NCBI GenBank assembly: GCA_000830175.1 | Contig: JQIS01000001.1 | Span: 1 to 35,471 of the forward strand | Reading direction: 5' to 3' | Length of the DNA stretch: 35,471 nt | DNA from: Sulfurovum sp. FS08-3 | GTDB taxonomy: Bacteria > Campylobacterota > Campylobacteria > Campylobacterales > Sulfurovaceae | In this document: one piece after another, positions 29,804 through 35,471 of the stretch | How the letters are laid out: the number at the start of each line of letters is the position of its first letter | Numbering within the stretch: position 1 is the first letter of the stretch | Notes under the pieces: model-generated | The model's input: the letters and a program-made list of their open reading frames with translations, nothing else | Database searches by the model: none | What the model was told of the DNA's origin: nothing | Translations under genes and position numbers: made by a program

Positions 29804-30001
29804 CTACATAATTTCAAACAATTTTTCTTTTAACTTTTTAAAATCCTCTTCATTGATTTTTCCTATCTTTCTATCAAGTCGTCTGCAATCAAAAAGTTTA
29901 ATTTGAGACAACAATGCCACGCTCTTTTTGTCTGCTTTGAAGACAAAATCAAAATAGTAAATACCCTTTTTGACCTCATTCCATTGGTTAAAGTTTTTCA
30001 T
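29804..30001 (-). pseudogene. PemK/MazF-family toxin with internal deletion
   Basis: 65-codon ORF. It begins MKNFNQWNEVKK, the usual first residues of a PemK-like toxin family, and continues directly into the C-terminal third (YYFDFVFKADKKSVALLSQ, then IKLFDCRRLDRKIGKI). The middle of about 60 residues, which holds the catalytic fold and its RPVLI core, is absent, so it should be inactive. The ATG lies inside the end of the DUF1703 fragment; the GGAGAGGG of the FEWERV codons acts as its ribosome-binding site. I rely on memory of the family for the alignment. Confidence 0.65.
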
Positions 30002-30134
30002 TTTGCACCCTCTCCCACTCAAAGCTACTAATATTACGCTTCTTTTCATCGAAGTTTATCCCTACCAAATAGATTGTTTTACCATCATTACTATACTTTT
30101 GAGCATAGTTTTTGGCTTTGATTTGGCTTATCAT
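29988..30134 (-). pseudogene. C-terminal fragment of a DUF1703 (AAA-ATPase-like/PD-(D/E)XK) gene
   Basis: 48 codons reading MISQIKAKNYAQKYSNDGK, then TIYLVGINFDEKKRNISSF and EWERVQNEKL. All but the ends match the last residues of the larger gene at 34681-35471. It lacks the nuclease motif. Its ATG overlaps the stop of the 135-aa ORF (ATGA). It pairs with the N-terminal fragment at 30538-30666: together they are the two ends of one gene from which about 95% is gone. Confidence 0.85.
30008..30126. repeat. 119-bp direct repeat, copy 1
   Basis: By hand alignment 114 of 119 bases match 34689-34807 with no gap, in the same orientation. The repeat covers codons for QIKAKNYAQKY through FEWER. The spacing is 4,681 bp. 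Of the five differences, some change an amino acid (for example N/D and K/E). Confidence 0.9.
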
Positions 30135-30538
30135 GCTCTAATATTGATAGCAAAATCTTTTGATAATCTATCGTATTGATTTTTATCTACCACTGCACCA
30201 TTGCTATTGTAATCATTTTCTTTTATATCAAAATAAACGCTAACTGTATGATTTTTTCTATGAGGACTTTTGTGTTTAAATTCTATAAAATCTTCATACA
30301 TTCTATCAAAGATAAGCTCTTCAGCTAAAAGACTTTTTGGCTGAAGATATATTTTATAATACTCCTCATCACGACTAAAATTTTGATTCGTTTCTATAAA
30401 TTCTTGATATAGTTCAAAGGCAATACTATTAATTTTGCTATAGAGTTTATCAAATTTTTTATCTAGTTTTATTTTTTCTATATTTAATTTTGTCTCTTTT
30501 TCAAAAATACCATTGAGCCTCTCTGATATGCTTTTCAT
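30131..30538 (-). CDS. Hypothetical protein inside a gutted DUF1703 gene (135 aa)
   Basis: No family recognised. The protein is soluble, Lys/Glu-rich, helical in its first 70 residues (SERLNGIFEKETKLNIEK), with an N-terminal amphipathic region and a C-terminal part with SVYFDIKENDYN and KNQYDRLSKDF. I chose ATG 30538 because AGGAG lies seven bases upstream; a GTG one codon earlier is the alternative. The start overlaps the stop of the N-terminal DUF1703 fragment and the stop overlaps the C-terminal fragment ATG (ATGA). It therefore replaces the middle of that gene. It could be an antitoxin, an immunity protein or part of a small defence unit, but nothing in its sequence proves this. Confidence 0.65.
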   Translation of the reverse strand: MKSISERLNGIFEKETKLNIEKIKLDKKFDKLYSKINSIAFELYQEFIETNQNFSRDEEYYKIYLQPKSLLAEELIFDRMYEDFIEFKHKSPHRKNHTVSVYFDIKENDYNSNGAVVDKNQYDRLSKDFAINIRA

Positions 30539-30666
30539 CACTCATCTCCTTTTAAATTGTTTGATTTGTTGAATCTAAAATTTTTGGTCTTATCAATATA
30601 AATATAATCACCTTGGCGTATTTCGCTAAAGGTTTGGATTCCTATGGGGAGTTTTTTTAGGGTCAT
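30538..30666 (-). pseudogene. N-terminal fragment of a DUF1703 (AAA-ATPase-like) gene
   Basis: A 42-codon ORF starts MTLKKLPIGIQTFSEI and continues RQGDYIYIDKTKNF, the conserved first 30 residues of AAA-ATPase-like/DUF1703 proteins (KLPIGIQ-F--IR---YIYIDKT). After that the sequence changes to FRFNKSNNLKGDE, unrelated to the family, and stops. Its ATG overlaps the stop of the methyltransferase-like gene (ATGA). The break in homology is near 30577. It is too short to have the Walker A motif. Confidence 0.85.
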
Positions 30667-32042
30667 AGTGTTGCCTTAAATACTTTTTCATATCGTTTAT
30701 AACTCCATATATCACTCTCTCTACTAGAGATAAGTTCTGTTTTGTAGTTATCATCAAAGTATCGATAAAACATATCTAGCCTAGCATTTCGTTTGTCATT
30801 AATATTTGGACTAACACAGATAAAGTAGTTTAATCCACTTTGAGAGTTTGATATTTTTTCTAAAAATGCTCTATCGAGTCTAAAAAACTCTACATCTAAA
30901 ATATTTGAAAAGAGGTGTAGTGTAATATTCTTATTATTGACTTTTAAATCTCTCTCTTCCAAACAATCAATATCTTTATTTATCGCTTTGATATAGAGTT
31001 CATTCTCTTTTAATATATCAATATGTAACATTCCACGACTTAAGGCAATAGATGATGGCTCAATAAGTATAACATTTGAAATATCTATATTTAACTGCTT
31101 TTCTTTGATATAATCTATTAATAAAGTACTAGCCAAAGCTTGACCACAACCCCAATCTATAATATTTATTGTTTGATTATCCAGTTTATGGATGACTGTA
31201 TCAAAAGATGAGTAGAGTTTTGCTTTGTGCATTGTGCTATAAGAGAATATGTACTGAGATAGTTCATCATATTCTTCTAGGATTTTTACTCCTCTGTTTA
31301 ATTGACAAAAAAGAGCATCACTATCACAATATGTATTGATGTAGTCTATATTAACTCTTCTGATTTTATCAAAATTTGGATTTATAATGTCGTGCAGTAC
31401 TGAGCTATAATCACTATCTTCTATTTCTTTTTTTTGTATGTTTTGAAGTTGTATCGAAATGTATTGATACTCCTCTTCAAACTCTTTTTTTTGACTCTCA
31501 AAAAATACTTCAAAGTTTTCAGTAGTATCAATTATTGCATAGCTATCACTTTGTTTAATTTCTTCTATTTCTCTTGTCTTAGTTGCAATAGTGTTTTTTA
31601 AATTTTTTATATTCTCACTCAAAGAATCATAGCTATTAATGTCATTTTGAGAAAACTCTAAAATACTTTCTAATACTTGAACAGTATTCTCGTTACTATA
31701 AAATTCATTATAACTCTCTACAATATTTTGATACTGTTGATAATCTTCTTCGTCACGAGAATTTTTAAATTGAAGATAATAAAATACCTCTTTGATATTC
31801 AGAAGCTTTTTTATAATATCTTCTAAATTTAAGATGTATTGAGTATTGAAATCATTAATTGTATCAAGTAGTTTATCTCTTATTTCATTGATGTTTTCTA
31901 ACTCTACCTCTAGCGATTTTGTTTGATATTGTATTATCTCTATTTCTTTATTTCGTAACTCTGTTTTAAGAGTATCAATCTCTTCTTGTAGTTTTTCAAT
32001 TTCCCTATTGCCAAACACAATATTCCAAATTTTTTTAAACAT
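30663..32042 (-). CDS. Coiled-coil protein with SAM-methyltransferase-like domain
   Basis: 459 aa. Residues 10-60 and 140-205 are predicted coiled coil by heptad-like Leu/Ile/Glu/Lys pattern, with a charged middle segment. Residues about 215-459 look like a Rossmann methyltransferase: motif I INIIDWGCGQALAS (D296, G298, G300), motif II VILIEPS (E328), and a later hydrophobic strand FICVSPN. Motif I normally is DxGxGxG; the third Gly is Ala here, and a Cys lies in it. No target-recognition domain is present. The substrate is unknown; protein or small-molecule methylation is as possible as nucleic-acid modification. 25 nt after the LRR gene with AAAGG before the ATG. Confidence 0.65.
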   Translation of the reverse strand: MFKKIWNIVFGNREIEKLQEEIDTLKTELRNKEIEIIQYQTKSLEVELENINEIRDKLLDTINDFNTQYILNLEDIIKKLLNIKEVFYYLQFKNSRDEEDYQQYQNIVESYNEFYSNENTVQVLESILEFSQNDINSYDSLSENIKNLKNTIATKTREIEEIKQSDSYAIIDTTENFEVFFESQKKEFEEEYQYISIQLQNIQKKEIEDSDYSSVLHDIINPNFDKIRRVNIDYINTYCDSDALFCQLNRGVKILEEYDELSQYIFSYSTMHKAKLYSSFDTVIHKLDNQTINIIDWGCGQALASTLLIDYIKEKQLNIDISNVILIEPSSIALSRGMLHIDILKENELYIKAINKDIDCLEERDLKVNNKNITLHLFSNILDVEFFRLDRAFLEKISNSQSGLNYFICVSPNINDKRNARLDMFYRYFDDNYKTELISSRESDIWSYKRYEKVFKATL

Positions 32043-33566: not shown

Positions 33567-34583
33567 CTAATCCCCCTTAATCGTTTCACCATTTGGACTC
33601 TCCAAGTGCAACTGATAATTTTTCTTAGCCACCTCTTTTGAAGCATTGGCATAGCAGTAATTGCACTCATGAGGGCAAGTGTTGTATGCTCCTATGTCTT
33701 TGCTCATGATACAGCCACAATCTTCTCTTTGCCCTTTGTCTTTGAGTTTTTTCTTTTTTACTATTTTACCATCACTAAATAAATCAGCTTGTTCAATCTC
33801 TACTCCCAAAAAATCCATCAAGACTTTATCATCACTAAACAAATCTATCATCAAATCATCATCAATGCACTTATTGTGTGTGATTTTGTATTGTTCAAGG
33901 TCTATTTTTTCGCTACAAGTACCTAGTTCTAATCCCCAATCTTTATTAATCTCATAAATACCTCGTGCAAACTCATCCATCAATTGAGGAGTCCACTCTA
34001 TATAATTGACATTTTCTTTTTTAAGATTACTCTCTACTTTGCGATAAATACCAATATCCACAAACGAAAATACCAATTTAGTAGTACACTCTTTAAGCTC
34101 ATCTCCTATCTTTTTGATGCGTCTCAAAAGCTCATCTATATCAATTGTATCGGTCAAAATTAGAGGGTCATATCTCCATACCACTCTTTTTTTACCCAAT
34201 CGTTGCGATAACTCTTTAAATATTTTGATTCTACTCTCAACACTTGGCACTTTGGCTTCAAAGCCCTCATTGTCGTAATCATTCAAACTAAATTGAAAAT
34301 AGTAATGGGGAATATTTTTGTCCAAAAAATCCAAATGCTTCATCATCGGTTTTGGGTTTTTTGTCCAAAAAACAACCACTTGTGTATTTTTAAACGATAC
34401 ATAAAGAGGTACATTATTAAAAGGATTTATCCATTTGATATATCCTGCTTTCCAGCGAGAAACAAACCAATCACTATAAAAGGTGGGAATATCCGTCGAG
34501 CGACTTGCCGAGATAATTATAGGAGCTTGTGCCTCCACTTCTTCACCACTATCTATAATTATTGTCTCTTTCTTCCATTGCAT
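33567..34583 (-). CDS. DUF1848 family protein with C-terminal Cys cluster
   Basis: 338 aa. The N-terminus APIIISASRSTDIPTFYSDWF and the segment VVVFWTKNPKPMMKHLDF are typical of DUF1848. The C-terminus CGCIMSKDIGAYNTC, then PHECNYCYANAS, has cysteines at 289, 291, 303, 307 and 310, CxxxCxxC, as in radical-SAM enzymes, and may bind an iron-sulphur cluster. The function of the family is unknown. ATG overlaps the stop of the 22-aa stub (TAATG). The protein appears intact. Confidence 0.85.
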   Translation of the reverse strand: MQWKKETIIIDSGEEVEAQAPIIISASRSTDIPTFYSDWFVSRWKAGYIKWINPFNNVPLYVSFKNTQVVVFWTKNPKPMMKHLDFLDKNIPHYYFQFSLNDYDNEGFEAKVPSVESRIKIFKELSQRLGKKRVVWRYDPLILTDTIDIDELLRRIKKIGDELKECTTKLVFSFVDIGIYRKVESNLKKENVNYIEWTPQLMDEFARGIYEINKDWGLELGTCSEKIDLEQYKITHNKCIDDDLMIDLFSDDKVLMDFLGVEIEQADLFSDGKIVKKKKLKDKGQREDCGCIMSKDIGAYNTCPHECNYCYANASKEVAKKNYQLHLESPNGETIKGD

Positions 34584-34651
34584 TATATCTTCTCCCGTTC
34601 AAACCCAATATTGTTCTTATAACCCTCTACCCAAAGATACACCAACTCCAT
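34583..34651 (-). pseudogene. 22-aa N-terminal stub resembling an AAA/OLD-like ATPase
   Basis: The ORF starts MELVYLWVEGYKNN with AGGGG upstream, continues IGFEREKI and stops. In Campylobacterota a group of AAA ATPases begins M-L-YLWVE-YKNI--QGFNFSP, so this appears to be the start of such a gene with the rest deleted. The stop overlaps the DUF1848 ATG by one base, so the ribosome-binding site of the lost gene now drives DUF1848. It could instead be a real leader peptide. From memory of the family; not searched. Confidence 0.55.
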
Positions 34652-34680: not shown

Positions 34681-35471
34681 TCACTCCGCCCTCTCCCACT
34701 CAAAGCTACTAATATTACGCTTCTTTTTATCAAAGTTTATCCCTACCAAATAGATTGTTTTTCCATTATTGCTATACTTTTGAGCATAGTTTTTGGCTTT
34801 GATTTGGGCTAGGGCGTTTTCGTTGCCTACTTTGAACTCTAGGATATAGATTTTATTTTCTATCTTAACCGTAAGGTCGATTCTACCCAAATTGGTCACA
34901 TCTTCACCGATGATATCAAGCCCCAATGATTGCAAATAGACATAGATTACACTGGCATAAAAGCCTTCGTATTGTGGAAGATTATTTTTGGTGTAGTTGT
35001 TGTAGAGGATATGGGCAAACATCGACTCTAAGGCATTTTTGAACTGCTCTAACTCACCATCTATCAAAGCATCGTAGATACTATCTTGAAATCTTAGTTT
35101 TTCGCTCGTTTGGTTGGTGAGAAAATCGATCAGTACATCATTGAGTGAGTTTTTGACCTCCCTATTGGGGAGTTTTAATTTATACTCTATCCCACCTCTT
35201 CGCTTCTCTATCATCCTATCAATCGTCAAATACCCCGCTTGATAGAGTATCACCTCAAAATCAATATTTTCAATATCAAAGCTCTCTAGTATCTGTTCAC
35301 CCACTGTTATATTGGAGAGCTTGGGCAAGAAGTAGTGATTTTGTTCGATGAGTTTAATGAGAAAAGTAGGTGTACCAGAGCTAAACCAGTAGTTATTGTA
35401 CTTGTAATCATTTTTGATAAATTTAAGCAAATCAAAAGGGTTATAGACATCATCTTTGAGGAAATTATAGC
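34681..35471 (-). CDS. AAA-ATPase-like / PD-(D/E)XK nuclease (DUF1703) protein, partial
   Basis: The frame is open to the window edge, so only the last ~263 codons are seen. YNPFDLLKFI followed by YWFSSGTPTFLIKLI is the DUF1703 (PDDEXK_9) segment after the AAA-ATPase-like domain. The nuclease core near the C-terminus has GRIDLTV (Asp), YILEFKVG (E-x-K) and the helix QIKAKNYAQKY. The gene ends FEWERAE. The function of this family is not established; it is often in variable or defence-rich regions. The N-terminal ATPase half lies outside the window. The 3' end is repeated at 30008-30126. Confidence 0.85.
   Translation of the reverse strand, partial: YNFLKDDVYNPFDLLKFIKNDYKYNNYWFSSGTPTFLIKLIEQNHYFLPKLSNITVGEQILESFDIENIDFEVILYQAGYLTIDRMIEKRRGGIEYKLKLPNREVKNSLNDVLIDFLTNQTSEKLRFQDSIYDALIDGELEQFKNALESMFAHILYNNYTKNNLPQYEGFYASVIYVYLQSLGLDIIGEDVTNLGRIDLTVKIENKIYILEFKVGNENALAQIKAKNYAQKYSNNGKTIYLVGINFDKKKRNISSFEWERAE
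34689..34807. repeat. 119-bp direct repeat, copy 2
   Basis: Lies in the 3' end of the larger DUF1703 gene and matches 30008-30126 at 114 of 119 positions. Homologous recombination between the copies would remove the DUF1848, antitoxin/MazF, LRR, methyltransferase-like genes and the 135-aa ORF as a 4,681-bp circle. Confidence 0.9.

Follow-up and report, generated by a model that had tools for sequence, protein, structure and literature searches.

How does an intact gene of unrelated sequence come to stand between the two ends of one DUF1703 gene? A locus in the window, by which we mean the whole stretch of 35,471 nucleotides analysed here, raises this question. DUF1703 proteins (AAA-ATPase_like PF09820 plus PDDEXK_9 PF08011; described in PMC1913061) form a poorly understood multi-copy ATPase-nuclease family, and the locus illustrates the gain and loss of such genes in defence islands. 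The relevant features, all on the minus strand, are the following:

29804..30001 (-): mazF/pemK remnant of 65 codons, carrying the tail of PF02452
30008..30126 (-): DUF1703 3′ remnant, residues ~469-508, with a PF08011 match (listed ORF 29988-30134)
30131..30538 (-): ORF135, an intact gene of 135 codons with an ATG start and AGGAG upstream
30539..30582 (-): 44-bp spacer with the AGGAG site, not DUF1703 by its sequence
30583..30666 (-): DUF1703 5′ remnant, first ~28 codons, with a PF09820 match (frame continues to 30538)
30663..32042 (-): 459-codon coiled-coil protein with a methyltransferase-like C-terminal part (weak PF13679, E 0.0039)
34583..34651 (-): 5′ stub of a PDC-M62A (Septu-like) AAA ATPase, MELVYLWVEGYKN..., starting as the 610-aa protein of the related genome G021
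34681..35471 (-): 3′ part of a neighbouring DUF1703 paralog (PF08011, E 8.3e-23), which extends to C59:36225

The original prediction had read the two fragments as ends of one DUF1703 gene, in order and in the same orientation, and profile searches agree with it: the N fragment (ORF 30538-30666, minus strand) matches PF09820 AAA-ATPase_like at profile positions 1-22 (E 3.2e-6), and the C fragment (ORF 29988-30134, minus strand) matches PF08011 PDDEXK_9 at positions 69-103 (E 1.1e-7). The peptide from 30583-30666 (-), MTLKKLPIGIQTFSEIRQGDYIYIDKT, is a DUF1703 protein start, and the N-terminal signature KLPIGIQTFS..YIDKT is present in the N fragment. Both remnants find their closest match in a single paralog about 4 kb away (C59:34.7-36.2 kb): 30583-30656 is 90.5% identical in nucleotides to C59:36148-36221 over 74 bp, and 30008-30126 is 95.8% identical to its 3′ end over 119 bp. 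The 5′ remnant also matches G027, a genome discussed below, at 87% over 85 bp. Local scores were 113 for the N and 213 for the C fragment, compared with maxima of 32 and 29 in 200 shuffles. The alignment to intact DUF1703 proteins that had been proposed as a check places the remnants at residues 1-26 and 469-511 of a 511-aa protein, with an interior of about 442 codons (86% by protein) missing. The two gene ends thus stand as predicted, while their extents, first given as ~30 and ~45 codons with ~95% replaced, are corrected to ~28 and ~40 codons and 86%.

Little of functional significance is left in these remnants. Walker A (RPRRFGKS) and Walker B (DEYD) are both deleted from the locus copy, the PD-(D/E)XK catalytic core is gone, and positions 69-103 of the 105 in PF08011 are all that is left of that domain. 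DUF1703 homology in the N fragment stops at 30583 and is followed by 14 unrelated codons and a stop; the C fragment is without its own last codons and stop, and enters the mazF remnant out of frame. Both stubs are presumably without independent function. The N-fragment ATG overlaps the stop of the upstream 459-codon gene (ATGA), and ORF135 overlaps both fragments, as had been noticed earlier, its start sharing TGATG with the N-fragment stop and its own stop sharing ATGA with the C-fragment ATG. In view of the ATGA and TGATG overlaps, the 5′ stub may act passively as a leader to which translation of ORF135 is coupled. There are no Ns in the window. The genome it comes from (2.54 Mb, 68 contigs) holds ten PF09820 matches in a profile search, several of them partial. 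Its gene content looks Campylobacterota-like.

ORF135 itself is indeed unrelated to DUF1703, as originally claimed: its local score of 28 is at shuffle level. The suggested profile and structure searches did not identify it, giving only chance-level matches to PHROGs and the PDB and an unusable AlphaFold model (pLDDT 47). Pfam, NCBIfam and PADLOC hold no matching family, and plasmid, phage and IMG/VR sequences no relatives. The spacer upstream of it gave only short AT-rich chance matches among 150 family genomes. Among 399 genomes of the order, a second intact copy was found only in G027; it is of equal length, with 48% amino acid and 71% nucleotide identity. The comparison of the two copies (dN 0.35, dS 0.78) suggests a maintained, fast-evolving gene. 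Weak matches in G225 and at G027:C60 (E 0.009) did not stand on inspection.

ORF135 is found near DUF1703 sequences elsewhere too. The order in G027 is DUF1703, 6 kb of genes, ORF135, and then an intact DUF1703 gene starting 17 bp downstream, and ORF135 is there an ordinary gene outside the DUF1703 genes. The gene upstream of it (L031 7444-8085), 214 aa long and possibly truncated, looks like the first half of a Septu/OLD-like AAA ATPase. On contig C53 of the window's genome, a shortened ORF135 tail (94.7% identical over 75 bp) follows a DUF1703 5′ stub behind mqnE, with a TGATTA-like microhomology recognised by eye at the junction. In the sister species G011 the contig breaks off within an ORF135 tail, 34/35 bp of which are identical. 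A DUF1703 3′ end of the type found on C48 adjoins this tail, the junction falling at a codon unlike the window's and over a AAGCCAAA microhomology, again recognised by eye. Junctions vary among C59, C53, G021 and G011. Those in C53 and G011 indicate that the association with DUF1703 remnants predates one strain, and make an assembly error unlikely.

The locus sits between HlyD and RND genes, an interval whose gene content varies among relatives; the RND protein is 99% identical to that of the window in G021 and 98% in G011. The G021 interval contains toxin-antitoxin genes, an intact DUF1703 gene (91% nucleotide identity to the window's neighbouring paralog), PDC-M62A (the 610-aa protein, E 5.9e-123), PDC-M62B (E 2.7e-64) and the same mazF remnant (97% amino acid identity), and ORF135 is absent from it. 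The mazF remnant and RND are common to G021 and the window at 98.9% nucleotide identity. In the window PDC-M62A is cut to its 5′ stub, with other genes in its place. The neighbouring DUF1703 paralog reads as an ORF of 514 aa that includes a 10-N scaffold gap (C59:35472-35481) past the window end, and is putatively intact. The HlyD-RND interval is a high-turnover defence region or hotspot. It resembles known defence islands that combine toxin-antitoxin genes with the Septu-like PDC-M62A/B (PADLOC), in that G021 has DUF1703, PDC-M62A and PDC-M62B at exactly this position; the window differs in retaining only the PDC-M62A 5′ stub. The island also contains a DUF1848 radical-SAM-like gene (window 33567-34583, minus strand; PF08902, E 1.7e-92). 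Elements that are palindromic and look mobile, with CGTAGGTTTGGCA(G/C)TGCCAAAC at their ends and a hairpin of GTGGGTGAAACCCAC, occur at L059 15590-15770 (G021), in L201 and in the 3′ part of L058, repeatedly just upstream of PDC-M62A genes and stubs.

Truncated DUF1703 genes are also found in relatives. Among 20 short N-end frames, 13 were contig-end artefacts, two were near full length (one with frameshifts) and five were real; 16/20 short C-end frames were contig-end artefacts. Three of the five real N-end cases are internal deletions with both ends kept; the fourth, G030:C8, is a serial deletion, and the fifth, in G084, is a bare 5′ stub lying between truB and ispE. The first three retain residues 1-70 and 415-509, in frame (G001:C51), 1-178 and 250-509 (G030:C35), and 1-147 and the last ~10 (G132:C61). 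This last copy is 96% identical in nucleotides to an intact-gene copy of the same bin across their common 3′ end and downstream DNA, and has lost its interior. The mazF remnant has a similar form, its first 12 and last ~53 codons being kept and ~64 between them lost, as judged by eye against intact homologs of ~130 aa. Since the DUF1703 copies of G001, G030 and G132 and mazF all show such deletions, loss of the interior with retention of the ends is common here. Bare 3′ stubs were found in G079:C34, G132:C66, G057:C155 and C48 of the window's genome. Three species have a 5′ stub after mqnE, a core gene; these stubs are 10, ~22 and ~24 codons long and continue differently, the third running into a contig end. 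A genus-wide pattern search turned up the exact DUF1703 start six times, four of these in stubs; the reversed control gave none. The mqnE-locus stubs (L024 7491-8654, from G000:C53; L142; L143) begin a few bases from the mqnE stop, and other DUF1703 starts overlap the stop of whichever unrelated gene precedes them, which gives the impression that copies settle right behind gene ends. A cobalamin operon of G132 was considered as a possible insertion between two DUF1703 halves (C61 and C66). This was dismissed, since there is no join between the two contigs and an intact copy, followed by the same downstream gene, is present on C66 itself.

We think it likely that the locus is a decay scar in a high-turnover defence island, produced by illegitimate deletions around ORF135 and perhaps one capture step. 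ORF135 would have been a normal small operon gene that came into a run of DUF1703 genes, where it may have stood between two copies, comparable to the gene order in G027, or have been captured into a single copy during deletion. The DUF1703 bodies would then have been removed by illegitimate, probably microhomology-based deletions, halted before the upstream overlapping gene and before ORF135, and the leftovers would be the 28-codon 5′ stub and the ~40-codon 3′ stub, bounded by overlapping neighbours. We infer both this order of events and the deletion mechanism. The statement that simple decay would not give this arrangement holds insofar as point decay or a single deletion cannot place ORF135 there, but not as a general argument, given how common ends-kept deletions are in DUF1703 and mazF. 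Since the two ends of a single gene cannot come to enclose ORF135 by deletion alone, the route requires a capture or a minimum of two deletions, and no intermediate on it was found. Several observations fit a decay scar poorly: the two remnants share one closest paralog; at C53 what is left of ORF135 follows a DUF1703 5′ stub, which plain decay alone does not predict; and the DUF1703 gene that comes after ORF135 in G027 belongs to a subfamily unlike that of the C fragment. The microhomologies, moreover, were judged by eye. The shared closest paralog, together with the agreement of both ends in order and orientation, speaks for a single deletion-insertion, by which ORF135 DNA would have been captured at break repair into one DUF1703 gene as its interior was lost; recombination between DUF1703 5′ ends would then have carried the hybrid to a second locus. 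A shorter derivative of the pair of N stub and ORF135, located behind mqnE at C53, is consistent with this, as is the recombination of DUF1703 paralogs (PMC6387759; a hypervariable block between conserved arms). No relative, however, carries ORF135 within an otherwise complete DUF1703 gene, and that of G027 lies outside the intact ones, which leaves a single deletion-insertion possible but rather doubtful.

Recurrent cassette exchange, in which the conserved DUF1703 ends act as homology arms and the cargo between them is swapped, was the mechanism favoured by the original prediction. ORF135 does occur in a DUF1703 slot at two loci and in the sister species, and DUF1703 paralogs do trade an internal segment (~88-148) between near-identical flanks. 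The search for different cargo between the same ends, however, found a second cargo in 0/150 family genomes, a survey limited in sensitivity by the position of most truncated copies at contig ends. The breakpoints vary from the 10, ~22 and ~24 codons at mqnE to 28 in the window, the 3′ junction in G011 is unlike the window's, and the arms are short, at 74 and 119 bp. We regard the homology-arm proposal as very improbable. Integron-like or phase-variable exchange also puts unrelated sequence between two conserved ends; the window differs in its lack of recurrent cargo and fixed boundaries, and an unsystematic look noticed no recombinase gene or attachment site. A broader version, that DUF1703 paralogs are portable recombination platforms whose conserved ends let unrelated ORFs replace the interior, and that the ORF135 hybrid moved between DUF1703 loci in this way, seems to us very unlikely. 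If exchange were true, it would be a new gene-shuffling route; the locus rather advises caution, as a foreign ORF flanked by two gene ends need not signal cassette exchange. An assembly chimera of unrelated contigs joined at DUF1703 repeats might be suspected in a draft of 68 contigs with a 10-N gap inside the neighbouring DUF1703 copy, the more so as DUF1703 copies break contigs in many genomes. We consider it very improbable: the locus is without Ns, its junctions lie outside long repeats, and the side joining ORF135 to the C stub recurs in G011 and that joining the N stub to ORF135 at C53.

A limited literature set on DUF1703/PF09820 offers no description of a DUF1703 gene filled by another ORF. 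The closest parallel is Cardinium cCpun, in which, according to PMC6387759, the DUF1703 family is expanded and recombining, with partial copies and intragenic recombination. The locus fragments belong to this same multi-copy family with partial copies; the cCpun partial genes lie at scaffold borders, whereas the remnants in the window are contig-internal, with an unrelated ORF between them.

Contig C88 of G106 carries four DUF1703 copies with other genes between them (L185 1776-3320, 4789-6333, 11629-13173, 14613-16154). In these, and in G132:C61 (L106), paralogs otherwise 93-100% identical differ in a sharply bounded hypervariable block that lies between the Walker A and Walker B motifs (residues ~88-148) and from sequence comparison looks like a swapped specificity segment. 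What is exchanged here is a part of the DUF1703 gene itself and no foreign ORF. Copies 1 and 2 are 54-62% identical within the block and nearly 100% identical after it.
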